Below, piece by piece: positions 9,824 through 31,363 of a stretch of DNA of 33,714 nt; within the stretch, counting starts at the first letter, position 1; every line of letters begins with the position of its first letter. The DNA is from Candidatus Zixiibacteriota bacterium (GTDB lineage: Bacteria; Zixibacteria; MSB-5A5; WJJR01; JAJRUJ01). The notes beneath the pieces are model-generated. The model was not told the DNA's origin and did not search any database. It saw only the letters and a program-made list of their open reading frames with translations. The position numbers were made by a program, and so were the translations under genes. Location: positions 1 to 33,714 of the forward strand of contig JAJRUJ010000009.1 in assembly GCA_024277855.1 (NCBI GenBank), read 5' to 3'.

Positions 9824-10555
9824 GTGAAACAATCGGTTTTCACCGTTATCGTCTTGGTCATTTCACTGAGCACCGGGTTTATTATCTGGACTCAGTTACC
9901 GGACTACCTGCAGGAGGGCGGTCCGCTGGTGGGTGTTTTGATTGCGCTGGTCGTGATGCTGGCCGCTTACATTCTGGAGCGGATCTTTACCCTGCGCAAG
10001 GCGCGCGGGACCGCGTCGATCCAGTCGTTTTTCAAAAAAGTTGTTGAATACCTGAAGCAGGGCAACTACGAAGGCGCGATGGCTGCTTGTGATAAGCAGC
10101 GCGGGTCTTGCGCCAACGTTTTACGCGCGGGCATCGAACGCTATGCGCAGGTTGCCGGTGATTCGTCGATGAACACCGAGAAACGGCTGTCGGAAACTCA
10201 GCGGGCGATTGACGAAGCCAACGCGCTGGAAGTCCCGTTGTTGGAACGGAACCTGATCGCCCTTTCCACGATCGCCTCGATTGCGACAATGACCGGCCTG
10301 TTGGGTACGACCATCGGGATGATCCGCGCATTTCAAGCTACCGGTTCGGCTGCGGGGGGCGTGATCGACGCCACGGCGCTGGCGACGGGTATCTCCGAGG
10401 CGCTGGTCAACACTGCCGGCGGCCTGGTCAACGCGATCATCGGGATTGTGGCTTATAACTTTTTCGTGAATAAGGTTGACTCCTTCAATTATACGGTTGA
10501 CGAAGCGGCTTACGAGGTGGTGCAGCTTCTCAAGACCAAAGAAGTTGGGAGCTAA
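9824..10555 (+). CDS. exbB: MotA/TolQ/ExbB proton channel family protein
   Basis: This 243-residue inner-membrane protein forms the pentameric shell of the ExbB-ExbD proton motor, which converts proton flow into movement that TonB passes to outer-membrane receptors. Membrane segments lie near residues 5-22, 31-52, 139-163 and 178-203, with a cytoplasmic helical region between the second and third (FFKKVVEYLKQGNYEGAMAA, then IERYAQV). The conserved core LNLIALSTIAS-like stretch (ERNLIALSTIASIATMTGLL) and the glycine-rich GTTIGMIRAFQATG are family hallmarks, and ISEALVNTAGGLVNAIIGIV is the last helix. It starts at GTG 9824, five bases after the strong SD AGGAGG (9813-9818). An N-terminal extra helix gives four in total rather than three. 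It lies three bases upstream of exbD1. Confidence 0.92.
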   Translation: MKQSVFTVIVLVISLSTGFIIWTQLPDYLQEGGPLVGVLIALVVMLAAYILERIFTLRKARGTASIQSFFKKVVEYLKQGNYEGAMAACDKQRGSCANVLRAGIERYAQVAGDSSMNTEKRLSETQRAIDEANALEVPLLERNLIALSTIASIATMTGLLGTTIGMIRAFQATGSAAGGVIDATALATGISEALVNTAGGLVNAIIGIVAYNFFVNKVDSFNYTVDEAAYEVVQLLKTKEVGS

Positions 10556-10558
10556 GCA

Positions 10559-11050
10559 ATGAAAAAAGGGAAACGTCGGGTCAGTATTACCTTGGATATG
10601 ACGCCGATGGTCGACATCGCCTTTCTGCTCCTGATTTTCTACATGTCGACGACGCAGTTTAAACCACCCGAGCAGAAGGAAGTGGCTCTGCCGGTTTCCC
10701 GATCTCAGCGTGAATTGCCCAAAACTAACTACATTACGGTGACAGTGACTGCGTTGGACTCTATTTTCGTTGATTATATCATTAAGACGAAAGTGGAAGA
10801 TCCGACAACGGGCGATTCGATCCTTGTTCCGCAGCGTGAATACCGCGACGCGGACTACTATACCGTCGGCTCGGTCATCAACGAAATGCGTGTAGCGGCG
10901 AGGAGGCAGGGGATTAAAAATCTCTTCATCATCCTCAAAGCCGATCGGGACGCCAACTTCGGCACCGTGGAAAAGATCATGAAAAACCTCCAGGAGTCGA
11001 AGTTGAGTTCATTCCAGATCATTACCGATGTTGAGCAAACGCCGATGTAG
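10559..11050 (+). CDS. exbD: ExbD/TolR family biopolymer transport protein, copy 1
   Basis: This 163-residue single-span protein is the rotor/stator partner of ExbB. A short basic cytoplasmic tail (MKKGKRRVSITLD) leads into the membrane helix MTPMVDIAFLLLIFYM (residues 14-29). The aspartate in MVDIAF is the conserved proton-carrying residue. The periplasmic domain follows (NYITVTVTALDSIFVDYIIK, then LFIILKADRDANFGTVEKIM). The gap after the ExbB stop is only three bases, so translation is coupled. It is longer than the usual 140 residues because of an insert around VEDPTTGDSILVPQREYRDA. The second copy follows 117 bases later. Confidence 0.92.
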   Translation: MKKGKRRVSITLDMTPMVDIAFLLLIFYMSTTQFKPPEQKEVALPVSRSQRELPKTNYITVTVTALDSIFVDYIIKTKVEDPTTGDSILVPQREYRDADYYTVGSVINEMRVAARRQGIKNLFIILKADRDANFGTVEKIMKNLQESKLSSFQIITDVEQTPM

Positions 11051-11167
11051 CCGGGCGCGGGCAAAAATTTTGTAAACGAACCCGGACCAGGTGCGTTCTA
11101 TTGTTGGGATCATAAACCTTCGGTGGATGAGCGTTGGCCGGCGAAGGAATAAAACGGGAGTTGTTCC

Positions 11168-11746
11168 ATGGGCTCAGTTGATTTAGCAGGACCTTCATCA
11201 AAAGGTAAAAAGAAAGGTCTGCGTCGGCCCAAGCGGCGGATCAATATCCGGCTGGATATGACGCCGATGGTAGATATTGCCTTTCTGCTTTTGATTTTTT
11301 ATATGGTGTCAACCATTTTCTCCGAGCCGCAGGCGATGGAGATCAACCTGCCGCCGGAAACCAAGGTGCCGGTTAAGGAATCGAAAGTGCTCACGGTGCG
11401 GGTTGATGAGTACAACAATCTGTATGTCAATATGTCACAGGAAGATCCTGTTCCTATACCTTTCGATTCCCTGACGGCTCGCTTGATTGATGAGAACCAG
11501 AAAACAGCAGACCTGATCACATTGATTAAGCTGAACAAGCTGGCCAAATACTCCAAGATGGTCGACATCATTGATGACATCGAAGTCATCGAGGCGCGTT
11601 TCAAAGAGACCAAACCGAGTTTTTCCTATCGATTCTCGATGGCGCCCTGGACCAACGGCGACCAGAAGATAATTGAGCGTGTGCGCGCGGCCTACCAGGG
11701 TTTGCAAGGTGGACAAACTAACACCGAGGAGGTGGGCACACCATGA
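11168..11746 (+). CDS. exbD: ExbD/TolR family biopolymer transport protein, copy 2
   Basis: This 192-residue protein repeats the ExbD plan with a longer cytoplasmic tail rich in Lys/Arg (KGKKKGLRRPKRRINIRLD). Its membrane helix MTPMVDIAFLLLIFYM is identical to that of copy 1, including the essential Asp. The periplasmic domain differs (KVLTVRVDEYNNLYVN, then LIKLNKLAKYSKMVDIIDDI), and an extra C-terminal part ends EEVGTP. GGGAG at 11156-11160 is a good SD for ATG 11168. The stop codon overlaps the tonB start (ATGA at 11743-11746). Two ExbD paralogues in one operon are common in the FCB group; they may form a heterodimer in the ExbB pore or be alternative rotors for different tasks. Confidence 0.92.
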   Translation: MGSVDLAGPSSKGKKKGLRRPKRRINIRLDMTPMVDIAFLLLIFYMVSTIFSEPQAMEINLPPETKVPVKESKVLTVRVDEYNNLYVNMSQEDPVPIPFDSLTARLIDENQKTADLITLIKLNKLAKYSKMVDIIDDIEVIEARFKETKPSFSYRFSMAPWTNGDQKIIERVRAAYQGLQGGQTNTEEVGTP

Positions 11747-12483
11747 CCCAAGCGGTCGTCAGAAGCGCATTTGCCACCGGTATCGGTGCATTTGAATTAA
11801 AACGCTATTACCAGAAACATATGTTTCTGGGTACGATTATTTCCTCGGGAGCCGCGCTGGCCATCGTCGGGTTGATCATGCTCTATACCTACCTGCAGAC
11901 GCGGGACATCGAGGCGGTCCATGTCGTACGGATCAAGACGCTGGCCGAATTAGCTCCGCCGCCGTCGATGACGGCGCGTGCGCCGCAGATTCAGGTGGCT
12001 CAACCGAAAATCGCCCCGCCGTCGATCGGTGTGCCGACCCCGGTGCCGGACGAAGAAGTAGCCGATGAGGTCAAGTTTGCCACACGTGCTGAACTGGCCC
12101 AGCTTGCCGCTCCAATTACCAGTCGATCTGATATCGGCGGCGGTGATTCACTGATTATCGATATCCCCGACGAGGAATTCATGCCGGCGCCGGATGAATT
12201 CATTGCGGTGGAAGAGATGCCGGTGCAGGTCTATGAGGAGGCCCCGAAATATCCGGATATGGCTGAACGCGCGGGGATTGAAGGGGTTGTTTGGATACGT
12301 GCCCTGATCGATAAGGAAGGCCGGGTGCGCGACGCGATTGTCCAAAAACCATCGGGAACCAACGCTGGTTTCGAAGAGGCGGCACTCGAAGCGGCCTACA
12401 AGAATCGTTACAAACCGGCGATTCAGAATGGACGACCGATTCCCGTCTGGGTGTCTTATAAAGTTCAGTTCGAATTGAATTAG
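11743..12483 (+). CDS. tonB: TonB family energy transducer
   Basis: This 246-residue protein should link the ExbBD motor to outer-membrane receptors. A cytoplasmic tail of about 30 residues is followed by one membrane helix (about 29-48, LGTIISSGAALAIVGLIMLY), a proline-rich but short periplasmic linker (LAPPPSMTARAP, then IAPPSIGVPTPVPDEE) and the C-terminal TonB domain (about 160-246: EEAPKYPDMAERAGIEGVVW, then IDKEGRVRDA, ending YKPAIQNGRPIPVWVSYKVQ). The linker is acidic rather than the long Pro-Lys/Glu repeat of E. coli TonB. The start overlaps the exbD2 stop by four bases, with AGGAGGT at 11727-11733 as SD. A strong terminator follows immediately. Confidence 0.92.
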   Translation: MTQAVVRSAFATGIGAFELKRYYQKHMFLGTIISSGAALAIVGLIMLYTYLQTRDIEAVHVVRIKTLAELAPPPSMTARAPQIQVAQPKIAPPSIGVPTPVPDEEVADEVKFATRAELAQLAAPITSRSDIGGGDSLIIDIPDEEFMPAPDEFIAVEEMPVQVYEEAPKYPDMAERAGIEGVVWIRALIDKEGRVRDAIVQKPSGTNAGFEEAALEAAYKNRYKPAIQNGRPIPVWVSYKVQFELN

Positions 12484-17403: not shown

Positions 17404-18180
17404 TCAACGACGCCGCAGTGATGACGGATTTCCCTGCAATGATTTTTGTCGGAGCGTGCCCCGGTCTGTTTGTTCGCCCCCCGGGTCTTGCCGGGTTAGT
17501 ACGCGTTTAGCAGAGCAAAGGGGACAGCGGGACGGTTTGAGTGACCGCGAATGTTTGTGCTCAGGGCATTGAAACAAGACGGGAATTTCATCGAGGTATT
17601 CCTTGTTACACAATTTTTGGTCTTTGTACTCGAGGAAAATCCGTTTTTCATGACCACGACAAATCCAGCCCTTGAGCGGAGTCATGAAATAAGCCGTAGC
17701 AAAGTGAACCGTATCCATTTGCCCGTCAGCATTCACATAAAACCGGAACCGCAGCCGCAACGCTCCGTCCTGTACCAGCGAAAAATCCGCGGGTGCAAAC
17801 AGATGATGTCCGCGTTTAACCGAAGATCCTTTTAGCCGAGGCCGGTAATGACGCGGGTCTTTCTTGACCGAAAACGGTATGGAGAGTAATTTCCCCGAAT
17901 CATCGACAAATGATACTTCACCGGTGATTTGTTTTAAGTCGATGGTTTGAGCGGAACGATCCCTCAAGTAGACCCGGATGCCGTCGGGATCGCCGACAAT
18001 CTCAAAGAAATGTTTTGCCCGCTCAAATATGCGTCCGCCGTGTGGCCCGATCTTTACCTTGATAGATTCACTGGTGTTCTGGACCTCGGACGGTGTCCAC
18101 TTCGTTTGCTGAGAAAAAACGGTTTGTGGAAGAAAAATAACCGTGAAAAAAAATAACGATGTGATACTTCGTAAAAACAT
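17404..18180 (-). CDS. Secreted protein with heavy-metal-binding-like C-terminus
   Basis: This protein of about 258 residues has a signal peptide (MFLRSITSLFFFTVIFLPQT, cleavage near VFS-Q). The N-terminal domain (about residues 40-150) includes KIGPHGGRIFERAKHFFEIV, VYLRDRSAQTIDLK and SVKRGHHLFAPADFSLVQDG; the PHGG start and the following beta-rich pattern recall a periplasmic domain seen with metal-efflux adaptor proteins. Near the C-terminus, FQCPEHKHSRSLKPSRCPLC holds CPxHxH and CPxC, close to the CPMHP...CPxCGM motif of heavy-metal-binding domains. Metal binding is inferred. The ATG at 18180 is chosen because CTGGAG lies five bases before it; the ATG two codons earlier is too close to that SD. 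It converges with the YfhO gene with only 26 bases between stops. Confidence 0.6.
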   Translation of the reverse strand: MFLRSITSLFFFTVIFLPQTVFSQQTKWTPSEVQNTSESIKVKIGPHGGRIFERAKHFFEIVGDPDGIRVYLRDRSAQTIDLKQITGEVSFVDDSGKLLSIPFSVKKDPRHYRPRLKGSSVKRGHHLFAPADFSLVQDGALRLRFRFYVNADGQMDTVHFATAYFMTPLKGWICRGHEKRIFLEYKDQKLCNKEYLDEIPVLFQCPEHKHSRSLKPSRCPLCSAKRVLTRQDPGGEQTDRGTLRQKSLQGNPSSLRRR

Positions 18181-18186
18181 AGTCAT

Positions 18187-18407: not shown

Positions 18408-19733
18408 ATGGCCGGTATTCAGATCTTATATTTGGCGGTTGGCGGCTTGGGCTGTTTCCTGCTGGCCTGGTTTGCATTCTCGTCGCTTGCTGAACGACGT
18501 CCCCGGGCGGCAATTGTCAGCGTTGTGCTTTGTTTCTCCCTCAGCCTGATCTGGTTTGTTGGCCCGGCCGTACTGCACCCCTCCGACGGCATCCTGTTGC
18601 TTTCCATCATCATATTTGTCCTTCCCGTTATTTTGTTTTTTCTGCCCTGGGGCAAAAACAAGCTACTTAGCCGGGGCGTTGACGATAGTCGATTCGACGA
18701 ACGTGATACGATGTTTGCTCGTGAGGAATATGTGCCGGGTACGCAGAAATATGATGATTACTACGCCATGCGGCCGGAGAATAAACAAGTCGATGACTTG
18801 CTGCGCCGTCTGCCGGAATTGCTTCAGCCGGGCGGGCGATATTACGATCCGGTTCGCTCGGGATACATCGAAGCACTGTTCCAGGCCAATCGGGAGTTGG
18901 TCGGTCTGGTCGACGGCGAAGTCAACACGGACCGACAACATTGTGAACCGGCGACCATGACGCCGACGATAAAAGACCTGGTCCGACACCTCGGGGCCGA
19001 CGAAGTCGGCATCGCCGAATTGGATCCACGGTGGATATATTCCCATGTCGGGCGAGGGCCGGAGAAATGGGGTTCGCCGATCGAGCAAAAACATCGGCAG
19101 GTCATCGTCTTCACGCTGGAGATGCGCTACCGTAAAGTGGAGGAGGCGCCGGATATCGGTATCACCGAGGAGACTGCCGTCCGGTACCTGGATGCCGCGA
19201 CATTGTCGGTAGCCCTGGCGTATTTTATTCGTAATTTAGGATATGGGGCGCGGGCGCATATTGCTGGGAGTAATTACCAACTCATCCTTCCTGCGGTCGC
19301 GGCCGATGCCGGGCTTGGCGAACTCGGTCGGCTGGGGTACCTGATTTCACCAAAATACGGGCCGCGGGTCCGCCTCGGGGCAGTCACTACCGATCTGCCG
19401 CTGATCCCGGACAAACCGGTCGCCTTCGGGGTGCGGGAATTTTGCGAAATCTGCAAAAAATGCGCGACGAACTGTCCCTCCCACTCGATTCCCTTCGAAG
19501 GCAGATCGACGGTTCGCGGTGTTGAGAAATGGCCGCTGCACGTTGAATCCTGTATGAAATACTGGCGGATAATCGGCACCGACTGTGGCTGGTGTATGAA
19601 AGTCTGCCCCTACAGCCATCCCCCGACTTTCCTGCACAATTTTGTTCGCGCGGGTATCCGTCGTTCGGCGGTGGCCCGCCGGCTCGCGCTCTGGGGTGAT
19701 GATTTATTTTATGGGCGTAAAACAACATCCTAA
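18408..19733 (+). CDS. Reductive-dehalogenase-like Fe-S protein with N-terminal membrane helices
   Basis: This 441-residue protein has three membrane helices at the N-terminus (about residues 4-26, 34-54 and 60-80) and a cytoplasmic or periplasmic domain that matches the RdhA plan: SVALAYFIRNLGYGARAH, AGLGELGRLGYLISPKYGPR and TTDLPLIPDKPVAFGVREF lead into two ferredoxin-type motifs, CxxCxxCxxxCP (Cys 346, 349, 352, 356) and C-x10-CxxCxxxCP (Cys 382, 393, 396, 400). The family transfers electrons through two 4Fe-4S clusters to a corrinoid cofactor. There is no Tat signal; RdhA-like proteins with membrane helices instead have been seen in genome surveys. No rdhB neighbour is present. QueG is less likely because of the helices. 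The start is ATG 18408; a TTG at 18369 is an alternative. Substrate unknown. Confidence 0.8.
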   Translation: MAGIQILYLAVGGLGCFLLAWFAFSSLAERRPRAAIVSVVLCFSLSLIWFVGPAVLHPSDGILLLSIIIFVLPVILFFLPWGKNKLLSRGVDDSRFDERDTMFAREEYVPGTQKYDDYYAMRPENKQVDDLLRRLPELLQPGGRYYDPVRSGYIEALFQANRELVGLVDGEVNTDRQHCEPATMTPTIKDLVRHLGADEVGIAELDPRWIYSHVGRGPEKWGSPIEQKHRQVIVFTLEMRYRKVEEAPDIGITEETAVRYLDAATLSVALAYFIRNLGYGARAHIAGSNYQLILPAVAADAGLGELGRLGYLISPKYGPRVRLGAVTTDLPLIPDKPVAFGVREFCEICKKCATNCPSHSIPFEGRSTVRGVEKWPLHVESCMKYWRIIGTDCGWCMKVCPYSHPPTFLHNFVRAGIRRSAVARRLALWGDDLFYGRKTTS

Positions 19734-28234: not shown

Positions 28235-31200
28235 TTGAGCACAAGGATCATTAGGAAGTTTGTTCCGGTTGCATTGGCGGTCTGCGTGCTTTTAGCCGCT
28301 TCGATTGCGTTGGCCGGAACGACGGGGAAAATCGCCGGCAACGTCGTCGACAAAGAGACTGCTCAGCCAATCCCCGGTGCTGCGATCACAATTGTCGGGA
28401 CTAGTCTGGGCGGGCTCACCGACGAGAACGGGCGGTATGTGATTTTGTCTGTACCGGTCGGCTCGTATGTGGTGAAAGCGCAGTTGGTTGGTTATACGCC
28501 GATGGAAGTCGAAAACGTCCGCGTTTCGGTGGATTTGACGACCGACATTAATCTGGAGCTGACCTCGCAGGCGGTGGAAGTCGGCACAATTCGCGTGCAG
28601 GCCAAACGGCCGCTGATTATAAAAGACCAGACTTCTTCTCTGCGGATCGTGGACCGTGAGCAAATCGCCTCGTTACCGACACGGTCATATCAGGATATCG
28701 TCGGCTACCAGGCCGGTGTCGTCCAGTTTTTGGATAATGCCGATGTCCGCCAGCGAGGCGGCCGTGAAAGCACCTCCGGCCCCAGCTCGATGAGTATTCG
28801 CGGCGGGCGCCGTTCCGAGGTTGCCTATTTTGTGGACGGATTCTCGCAACAGGACCCACAAAGTGGTCTGGCAACTACTCAGGTCAATCAGAACGCTGTC
28901 GAAGAGGTCTCGATTACCACGGGTGGATTCACCGCCGAGTATGGCTGGGTCTCGTCCGGGGCGATCAACGTGATCACCAAAGAAGGTAATCAGAATTATT
29001 CGGGCACGATCGAATTGATCACCGATAATGTCACCAACCGCAATTATGATTACAACACGTATGCCGGTGACTTTTCCGGACCAGTGCCCGGGTTCAATGA
29101 TAAGATGACTTTCTTCGTCTCCGGCGAACGTCGCTATTATGGTGATCGTGAACCGCGCGCCACTACGGAGGATTGGTTTTTCGACAAGGACGGGGCGCGC
29201 AGCTACGAGTTACCGTCGAATCGTCTGTCCGGGTATTCCTGGCAGGGGAAAGTCAATATGAACCTGACCCAGTCGATGAAACTGAAACTGGGATTTCTCG
29301 GTTCGCAAGACGACTGGAGCCAGTATCTGCATTCGTTCTATTTCAACACCAGTCATGTTCCCCGGTATTTAGACAAGAACAACTCGGCGTACGGGAAATT
29401 GGTTTACAATGTCAATCCCAAGACATTCTTCACCGCGTCGGTCAACTATTACAATACTTCCCGTAAACGAGGTGACGGAGTCGCTTTTGACAACATGATC
29501 GACTACGGTCGTCCGGACGGCAATTTCACGTTTGACGAGACAAGGTTGTTCTATAGCGGGGACAATCCGGAAACACCGTCGCAGGCCGATCATGCTCTGA
29601 TGATCGATGATGATTATGGCTTTGGATACATCACCGTTCAAGTCGACACTACCGACGCGGGTGAACCGGTATTCGAAGACATCGTTGTGCAGGATGAACG
29701 TGGTTATATGCGGAATGGTCGTTCGCGTGACAGCGTTCGTGCGGCATTGGCGGATGGCGACAATCCCTGGGTCTCCGACCTCATTTTGCAGGATGAAAAC
29801 GGGGTCATGTATGCCGACGAGAACTGGGTGTGGGAAGATTTTACGAAACGCGAATCGTCGTACTGGGGCTTCAAATCTGACATAACCAGTCAGGTGCATC
29901 CCAACCATGAAGTGAAAACCGGGGTTGAATACCAGTACCACACCCTAAAATACTACCGTCACCTTTTCCCCCACATGGCCTACAAAGATTCGGTGGTGGA
30001 CGGTGTCTGGTACGACAATGGCGGCTATGACGATGTCGACCATTACGGGTACGATATTTTCGGCAACGAATCCGATACGCTTTCCGAGGGCAACGAGGCC
30101 CGGCATCCGTATCAATTTGCCTATTACCTCCAGGACAAGTTTGAGTGGGAAGGCTTGGTGGTCAACGCCGGTTTGCGTTTTGACTACTTAAACGTGAATA
30201 CCAAACGGCTGAAATTCCCTGATACTCCCCTGGGTGATCCCAATGATAATCTTTCCGGGGATGACTCAGTCCTGGATCCCACCGACCTGGAAGATGCCAA
30301 GGCGGAAACGAAGTTGTCCCCACGGTTGGGTTTTGGTTTTCCCATATCCGACAAGACGACTTTTCATCTGTCATACGGGAAGTTCTTCCAGCGTCCCGAC
30401 CTGCAAAACCTCTATGTTGGCTGGGATTACATGAATTACCGGTTGACCAGCGCGGGGTATTACTACGCATTCGGCAATCCGAATCTCAAACCGGAAAAAA
30501 CGACTGCTTATGAAATCGGTATGACCAAGCAGGTTGGCGACTATACTCGCCTGGATTTCACGGCCTACTACAAAGACGTAGAAGACCTGACCCAGGTCAG
30601 TCACCAGGCAGTTCAGCAGGGCGCCTCCGGTCGCGATTTCGATCTCTATGTGAATTCGGATTTTGGGACGGTGAAGGGTCTGGAAATGACCTTGAACATG
30701 CGCCGAAACCGCAGTGTTGCGCTTGACCTGAATTACAGTCTTTCCTGGGCTACCGGGACCGGCTCGTGGGCAACGACCCAGCGAAATATTGCCTGGACTG
30801 TGTCGGATGCACCGAAATCCACCTCGCCGCTCGACTTCGATCAACGCCACAAACTATCGGCCAGTGTCGATATCCGGGCGGGTAAAGGCGAAGGTCCGCA
30901 GTTGGGTGAATGGTACCCGTTCGAGAACGCCGGAATCAACTTCCATTTCGGAGCGGCATCGGGTACGCCGTACTCGCCGATGGATATCTTTAACGAGGTT
31001 ACCCTGGCCGCTATTTCGCCGGTGCCTGATGGCGCGATCAATTCGGAGTATGGCCCCTGGACCTACCGTCTCGATCTCAAGGCGAACAAGGTGCTGAACT
31101 TCGGCAAATATGACCTGGACGTGTATATCTGGGTGTTGAATGTCCTTGATCGAAAGAACGAGATCGACGTCTACGAATCCAGTGGTCAGGTTAATTCTAC

Positions 31201-31363
31201 GGGTTGGCTGACAACTCCCGATGGCCGCAATTTCATTGAAACATATGAAGATGCGGATTACACCGGCTACAACGGGTTGGAAAAGTACAATATCAAACAG
31301 AACAACCCCAACAGCTATGACATCCCGCGCCAGATTCGGTTCGGGGTCAAAGTGAGTATTTAA
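28235..31363 (+). CDS. TonB-dependent receptor with carboxypeptidase-regulatory-like N-domain
   Basis: This 1042-residue outer-membrane protein should import a ligand using energy from TonB. After a signal peptide (MSTRIIRKFVPVALAVCVLL, cleavage near ALA-G) comes a beta-sandwich of the CarboxypepD_reg type (about residues 30-110; GNVVDKETAQPIPGAAI, then TDENGRYVILSVPVGSYVV). The plug domain follows (about 125-255; SIRGGRRSEVAYFVDGF, then VEEVSITTGGFTAEYG and GAINVITKEG), then a beta-barrel to the C-terminus, which ends IRFGVKVSI. The start is TTG 28235, eight bases after AGGAGG (28221-28226). An ATG at 28228 overlaps that SD and opens only a short out-of-frame peptide. A secreted-protein gene follows 24 bases downstream, so the pair is an operon. 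The ligand is unknown. Confidence 0.93.
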   Translation: MSTRIIRKFVPVALAVCVLLAASIALAGTTGKIAGNVVDKETAQPIPGAAITIVGTSLGGLTDENGRYVILSVPVGSYVVKAQLVGYTPMEVENVRVSVDLTTDINLELTSQAVEVGTIRVQAKRPLIIKDQTSSLRIVDREQIASLPTRSYQDIVGYQAGVVQFLDNADVRQRGGRESTSGPSSMSIRGGRRSEVAYFVDGFSQQDPQSGLATTQVNQNAVEEVSITTGGFTAEYGWVSSGAINVITKEGNQNYSGTIELITDNVTNRNYDYNTYAGDFSGPVPGFNDKMTFFVSGERRYYGDREPRATTEDWFFDKDGARSYELPSNRLSGYSWQGKVNMNLTQSMKLKLGFLGSQDDWSQYLHSFYFNTSHVPRYLDKNNSAYGKLVYNVNPKTFFTASVNYYNTSRKRGDGVAFDNMIDYGRPDGNFTFDETRLFYSGDNPETPSQADHALMIDDDYGFGYITVQVDTTDAGEPVFEDIVVQDERGYMRNGRSRDSVRAALADGDNPWVSDLILQDENGVMYADENWVWEDFTKRESSYWGFKSDITSQVHPNHEVKTGVEYQYHTLKYYRHLFPHMAYKDSVVDGVWYDNGGYDDVDHYGYDIFGNESDTLSEGNEARHPYQFAYYLQDKFEWEGLVVNAGLRFDYLNVNTKRLKFPDTPLGDPNDNLSGDDSVLDPTDLEDAKAETKLSPRLGFGFPISDKTTFHLSYGKFFQRPDLQNLYVGWDYMNYRLTSAGYYYAFGNPNLKPEKTTAYEIGMTKQVGDYTRLDFTAYYKDVEDLTQVSHQAVQQGASGRDFDLYVNSDFGTVKGLEMTLNMRRNRSVALDLNYSLSWATGTGSWATTQRNIAWTVSDAPKSTSPLDFDQRHKLSASVDIRAGKGEGPQLGEWYPFENAGINFHFGAASGTPYSPMDIFNEVTLAAISPVPDGAINSEYGPWTYRLDLKANKVLNFGKYDLDVYIWVLNVLDRKNEIDVYESSGQVNSTGWLTTPDGRNFIETYEDADYTGYNGLEKYNIKQNNPNSYDIPRQIRFGVKVSI

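Follow-up and report, generated by a model that had tools for sequence, protein, structure and literature searches.

The gene at positions 18408-19733 of the window (the whole 33,714-nucleotide stretch of Candidatus Zixiibacteriota contig JAJRUJ010000009.1 that was analysed) adds an intact member to a published but functionally uncharacterised family, the hybrid putative reductive dehalogenases (RDases). In these proteins an RdhA-like catalytic domain is fused to a membrane anchor of three helices. New with respect to the original description of the family (Atashgahi 2019; PMC6797604) is that this protein and 30 relatives appear to face the cytoplasm and to occur irrespective of the host's capacity for menaquinone synthesis. 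With moderate confidence, we favour a membrane-tethered, cytoplasm-facing corrinoid/[4Fe-4S]2 enzyme that would reduce organohalides without needing menaquinol. The topology and quinone results reported here sharpen the open questions of the 2019 paper and leave the kind of enzyme unchanged.

The gene and its family

The open reading frame begins with ATG, encodes 441 amino acids and contains no internal stops. Both flanking genes are oppositely oriented, at distances of 221 and 93 nt, and neither gap holds a fitting small hydrophobic ORF. This leaves no space for rdhB, and the gene is by itself (Table 1). A consensus promoter scan revealed no site close to it. No other gene of the 3.07-Mb genome exceeds the cut-off for reductive dehalogenases. 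The divergent neighbour (17404-18186, minus strand) encodes a 260-aa secreted-looking protein with a weak, sub-cut-off match to a heavy-metal-binding domain (HMBD) near its C-terminus. Farther away in the window, the regions 9824-12483 and 28235-31363 contain ExbB/TonB-type genes and a gene for a large TonB-dependent receptor with a carboxypeptidase-regulatory N-terminal domain.

Table 1. Features of the hybrid RDase gene and its product, with positions in the window.
Feature	Position	Strand	Basis
Gene for the hybrid RdhA-like protein of 441 aa, apparently transcribed alone	18408..19733	+	both flanking genes on the other strand
Membrane helix 1 (about residues 4-24), matching the helix ahead of the E-x-E loop in RdhB	18417..18479	+	hydropathy; AF2 (2-28); register with three RdhB
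Basic loop SSLAERRPRA (residues 25-34); E29 corresponds to DhPceB E61	18480..18509	+	alignment; conservation
Membrane helix 2 (about residues 35-55), matching the helix behind the E-x-E loop in RdhB	18510..18572	+	hydropathy; AF2; RdhB register
Membrane helix 3 (about residues 60-79), extra helix joining the catalytic domain	18585..18644	+	hydropathy; AF2
Conserved linker (residues 95-178), DERDxxFxReeYxPG...YYD...VDG	18690..18941	+	conservation in 31 homologues
Reductive dehalogenase corrinoid/Fe-S domain (residues 180-441)	18945..19730	+	TIGR02486; hhalign with SmPceA
Y260, catalytic Tyr; corresponds to NpRdhA Y426, SmPceA Y246, DhPceA Y337	19185..19187	+	alignments
N289; corresponds to SmPceA N272, Asn also in DhPceA, His in NpRdhA	19272..19274	+	register check
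R322; corresponds to SmPceA R305, DhPceA R396, Lys in NpRdhA	19371..19373	+	alignment; register check
4Fe-4S motif 1, CEICKKCATNC (C346-C356)	19443..19475	+	sequence; conservation
4Fe-4S motif 2, C382-x10-C393-x2-C396-x3-C400	19551..19607	+	sequence; conservation
C-terminal helices (residues 402-436); H410, R414, D431/D432, Y435 correspond to DhPceA H495, R499, D515, Y520	19611..19715	+	alignment with 8q4h

Against TIGR02486, the curated NCBIfam model with which reductive dehalogenases were searched for, the protein scores 180.6 bits (E 6.7e-53) at a cut-off of 160.35; PF13486 was uninformative, matching nothing in this or any control genome. The best-matching solved structures are NpRdhA, SmPceA, and DhPceA, with NpRdhA giving the top sequence score in the PDB, and hhalign with SmPceA over residues 177-441 returned a probability of 100 and an E-value of 1e-39. 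A phylogenetic tree was based on 21 hybrids, four catabolic and three respiratory RDases, six soluble Bacteroidota proteins, and three QueG sequences. In this tree the hybrids form one clade (support 95/96); the branching order among the other RDase groups is poorly supported, and the branches of the respiratory enzymes are long. The hybrids in the tree include a single locus from outside the phylum and the published hybrid accessions are not among them, so that the match to the published clade rests on common architecture.

This architecture agrees closely. The 'hybrid putative RDases' were described from about 70 genomes, including those of Zixibacteria, KSB1, Calditrichota, Bacteroidota, and Deltaproteobacteria, as proteins with three N-terminal helices but neither Tat signal nor rdhB (Atashgahi 2019; PMC6797604); the carriers named there include cultured ones, Marinifilum, Labilibaculum, and Caldithrix abyssi. 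The protein studied here has these traits in common with them, as well as both Fe-S motifs, a clade apart from the known RDases and similar hosts (candidate phyla, Bacteroidota, Desulfobacterota), and its length of 441 aa fits the tabulated range of mostly 440-490 aa. Of the two features of classic RdhAB systems, an N-terminal Tat signal and an adjoining rdhB, neither is present. The catabolic class typified by NpRdhA is soluble and has a fused oxidoreductase module, whereas the hybrid protein has 441 aa, membrane helices, and a separate clade. The original prediction, made from the sequence alone, had described an RdhA-like protein with both 4Fe-4S motifs, three membrane helices in place of a Tat signal, and no rdhB nearby, and all of this is borne out. 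Its statement that such forms are known only from genomes, with unproven activity, agrees with PMC6797604 and with a later study, in which hybrids still 'remain to be assessed' (PMC10624902); the papers citing PMC6797604 that were consulted report no activity.

Within the phylum, 41 of 132 genomes carry the hybrid gene, mostly at 51-59% identity, and in the window's own order the present genome is the only carrier. Two copies in the data set (L034:624-1940 and L072, on contig G092:C215) have in-frame stops or split frames, reflecting either decay or errors in draft sequencing. One Candidatus Kapaibacterium genome encodes a homologue at 52% identity. No other hybrid turned up among 395 sampled genomes of that phylum, which also yielded six short RdhA-like proteins of a different lineage (L076-L081, from genomes G352, G450, G324, G268, G155, and G513). 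These have about 317-340 aa and no evident membrane helices, and they form a 100/100 clade apart from the hybrid, catabolic, and respiratory RDases. No relative of the hybrid gene was detected on viral contigs, and phage and plasmid records contained only ordinary RDases and QueG.

Active site and Fe-S clusters

The two Fe-S motifs, C346-x2-C-x2-C-x3-CP and C382-x10-C393-x2-C-x3-CP, are present, as the original prediction had seen; the family signatures CX2CX2CX3CP and CX2CX3CP correspond to residues 346-357 and 393-401. None of the eight cysteines varies among the 31 homologues. The same holds in the alignment for Y260, N289, and R322. Since NpRdhA has His and Lys at the positions of N289 and R322, the three residues, as aligned, are a set of the respiratory-PceA type. 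Asn272 of SmPceA, the counterpart of N289, belongs to the active site of PceA. An AF2 model computed from a two-sequence alignment reached a pLDDT of 39, which is too poor for an assessment of the corrinoid pocket or for fold searches. From the sequence we infer that the protein binds a cobamide.

Membrane anchor and orientation

Hydropathy delimits three hydrophobic segments in the N-terminal part, and the weak AF2 model draws helices at residues 2-28, 32-56, and 60-78. The Tat motif RR-x-[hydrophobic] is absent from the first 100 residues of every homologue and from the in-frame upstream extension of the ORF. The sole RR of the protein (R30-R31) follows helix 1 and is replaced by KK, RK, or NQ in relatives. 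The genome encodes TatC, so the missing signal reflects the protein and not its host. Lysine and arginine residues average 5.97 in the loop between helices 1 and 2 plus the C-terminal side, versus 0.13 in the N-terminus plus the loop between helices 2 and 3, and the direction is the same in 31 of 31 homologues, a sample drawn from one phylum plus one outsider. Under the positive-inside rule, this charge bias by itself predicts a cytoplasmic catalytic domain. TMHMM predictions for the published hybrids were mixed (PMC6797604), whereas the charge bias is uniform here.

Helices 1 and 2 look like those of RdhB, the small membrane protein with an E-x-E loop, of which the first Glu alone is kept. 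Helix 1 of the hybrids is followed by the loop S-S-x-x-E-[KR]-[KR]-x-R-A, which lines up position by position with the loops of DhPceB (S-S-F-S-E-R-E-Y-Q-A), SmPceB (G-S-Y-G-E-D-E-P-Q-A), and a Dehalococcoides RdhB (G-S-Y-V-E-I-E-P-K-A). The pattern S-x2-E-x4-A, which was chosen after the sequences had been seen, fits 29 of 31 hybrids, each of the three RdhB, and 1.6% of shuffled controls; an ungapped score of helices 1-2 against RdhB is only slightly above the shuffled control. E-x-E is found at this place in most but not all published hybrids (PMC6797604). In contrast, the phylum studied here keeps the first Glu (E29; 30 of 31) but has Lys, Arg, or Gln in place of the second, DhPceB E63, in 30 of 31 sequences. 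In PceA2B2, the E-x-E loop and the catalytic subunit are both on the outer side of the membrane (PMC10624902). A hybrid with loop and catalytic domain both inside would thus be the PceA2B2 arrangement turned over.

Comparison with characterised enzymes delineates what is shared. With DhPceA2B2 (PDB 8q4h; PMC10624902), the hybrid has in common the catalytic Tyr and Arg, two 4Fe-4S clusters, the H, R, D, and Y of the menaquinone pocket, and the RdhB-like helix-Glu-helix element. It differs in being one fused chain with an extra helix, in its lack of Tat export, in the predicted opposite side of the membrane, in the loss of the second Glu, and in a host that is often without menaquinone synthesis. 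Tyr246, Asn272, and Arg305 of SmPceA from Sulfurospirillum (PDB 4uqu) are all matched, and SmPceB likewise consists of a helix, a Ser-x-x-Glu loop, and a helix; unlike the hybrid, however, this system has two proteins, a Tat-exported catalytic subunit, and an operon with rdhB and regulators nearby. The predicted cytoplasmic catalytic domain and the catalytic Tyr also link the hybrid to the catabolic RDases NpRdhA and BhbA (PDB 4ras), but these are soluble, have a duplicated domain, a reductase module, and Lys/His for Arg/Asn, and lack membrane helices.

The favoured mechanism would proceed as follows. With two RdhB-like anchor helices and one further helix fused to the RdhA domain, the active part would sit at the inner membrane, on its cytoplasmic side. 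Ferredoxin or flavodoxin, as a low-potential donor from the cytoplasm, would reduce the two Fe-S clusters either directly or via a membrane complex, and the clusters would in turn bring the cobamide to the Co(I) state. The reduced cobalt would then attack or reduce an organohalide in the buried site, where the substrate might arrive from the lipid phase. Tyr260, helped by Arg322 and Asn289, would donate a proton, and the halide would depart. Both the electron donor and the organohalide substrate are putative.

Menaquinol as a possible electron donor

An alternative explanation is that the hybrid is a menaquinol:organohalide oxidoreductase like PceA2B2, but flipped; the quinol site would have helices 1-2 on one side and the C-terminal helices on the other. 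Oxidation of quinol on the cytoplasmic side would then be an electron sink that makes no contribution to the proton motive force. Hybrids have indeed been suggested to resemble PceA2B2, in which DhPceA binds menaquinone via H495, R499, D515, and Y520 of its C-terminal helices (PMC10624902). The counterparts H410, R414, and Y435 show no variation among the 31 homologues and the D-D pair hardly any, which alone would argue for a quinol site, and E29 matches E61 of PceB. The replacement of the second Glu of the E-x-E motif speaks against this explanation, and so does the distribution of menaquinone synthesis. The genome of the organism, which is estimated to be 100% complete, contains neither MqnA/D nor a MenD above cut-off; a weak MenD match turned out to be another ThDP enzyme.

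In the phylum as a whole, MenD or MqnA is encoded in 77 of 132 genomes. Of the 41 carriers of the hybrid gene, 23 have one of these markers, in all 23 cases MenD, which is in favour of the menaquinol explanation, whereas 18 have neither, and carriage is not associated with menaquinone synthesis (Fisher p 0.85). The 18 include the present genome, nine of them are at least 90% complete, and in these carriers the pocket residues are the same. The survey relied on two markers (MenD and MqnA/D) in genomes some of which are incomplete; the markers may be diverged, and uptake of quinone is possible. MqnA and MenD are found in separate families of the phylum, both are missing from many near-complete genomes, and the seven genomes with MqnA are all without the hybrid gene. 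Because carriers with neither marker retain the same pocket, these residues are no proof of menaquinol use, as in Dehalococcoides; such residues are also conserved in quinone-independent bacteria (PMC10624902). On balance, a flipped menaquinol-dependent enzyme seems rather unlikely.

Cobamide supply and corrinoid methyltransferases

CobS was not found in the genome, and the usual route of lower-loop assembly is therefore missing. The cobamide is presumably imported, or it is finished in another way. The cell does use cobamides, as follows from the presence of methylmalonyl-CoA mutase and of a cluster on contig 70 (L090:10297-14014) that encodes a corrinoid protein, a protein resembling the MetH activation domain, and an MttB-family methyltransferase.

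Genes of the latter kind also occur next to hybrid genes. In all four species of one genus, g22 (L043, L044, L049, and L050), the hybrid gene is located 86-106 nt upstream of an MttB-family gene on the same strand. At three of these four loci, genes for an MtgC-like corrinoid protein and a homocysteine methyltransferase follow MttB (for example, L049:7992-13164), and a MetH-activation-domain protein is encoded at L049 and L050 as well. Plain synteny may explain this association, as the flanking genes are partly shared too. It is nevertheless a point in favour of a corrinoid redox enzyme other than a dehalogenase, which might reactivate corrinoid methyltransferases or catalyse a reduction in cofactor or natural-product metabolism. 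The wide distribution of hybrids in pristine sediments (PMC6797604) would suit such a role, and so would the absence of a regulator or rdh accessory gene nearby. In a comparison of 34 loci, no neighbour family recurred beyond local synteny. However, the association with MttB is limited to one genus among these 34 loci, the MttB cluster of the present genome is on a different contig, and the Tyr-Asn-Arg set of respiratory PceA, which is needed for halide removal, is invariant. A function outside dehalogenation is accordingly doubtful. It is still harder to accept the specific version hinted at by the g22 loci, in which hybrids would be membrane-tethered, cytoplasm-facing enzymes that serve corrinoid methyl transfer by reactivation or demethylation beside MttB instead of reducing organohalides; we consider this very unlikely.

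Remaining alternatives

That the catalytic domain is periplasmic and works as a classic respiratory RDase is highly improbable. The charge bias is opposite to this orientation in all 31 homologues, none of which has a Tat motif before helix 1 or in the loop between helices 2 and 3. In addition, we know of no Sec export of a folded corrinoid/Fe-S domain. The periplasmic orientation does find some backing in TMHMM, which put the C-terminus on the exoplasmic side in roughly half of the published hybrids (PMC6797604).

Finally, epoxyqueuosine reductase (QueG), a distant homologue that also has a corrinoid and two 4Fe-4S clusters, and a decayed gene can both be rejected with near certainty: the protein does match the QueG model TIGR00276, but only weakly (40.3 bits at a cut-off of 200), the tree, proposed in the original prediction as the check for a position inside QueG, excludes QueG at 100/100 with the present sample of sequences, a separate QueG-like gene is present on contig 66 of the same genome (L003), and the frame is intact with invariant catalytic residues.

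Implications

Organohalide reduction by a cytoplasm-facing enzyme independent of menaquinol thus remains the preferred explanation. Of the interpretation given in the original prediction, the identity of the protein stands, whereas the option of organohalide respiration is weakened in this organism by the predicted cytoplasmic domain and the absence of MenD and MqnA/D. Many sediment bacteria have hybrid RDases, and the 2019 study asked what their function is and which side of the membrane they face (PMC6797604). Two of its questions now become directly testable: the side of the membrane, for which 31 of 31 proteins indicate the cytoplasm, and the use of menaquinol as donor, for which 18 of 41 carriers have no known menaquinone synthesis while keeping the pocket residues. 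If the preferred explanation is true, organohalide reduction by carriers of hybrid RDases would be a cytoplasmic electron sink or a means of detoxification and not respiration, and many genomes that have been called organohalide-respiring from such a gene alone would be misread.
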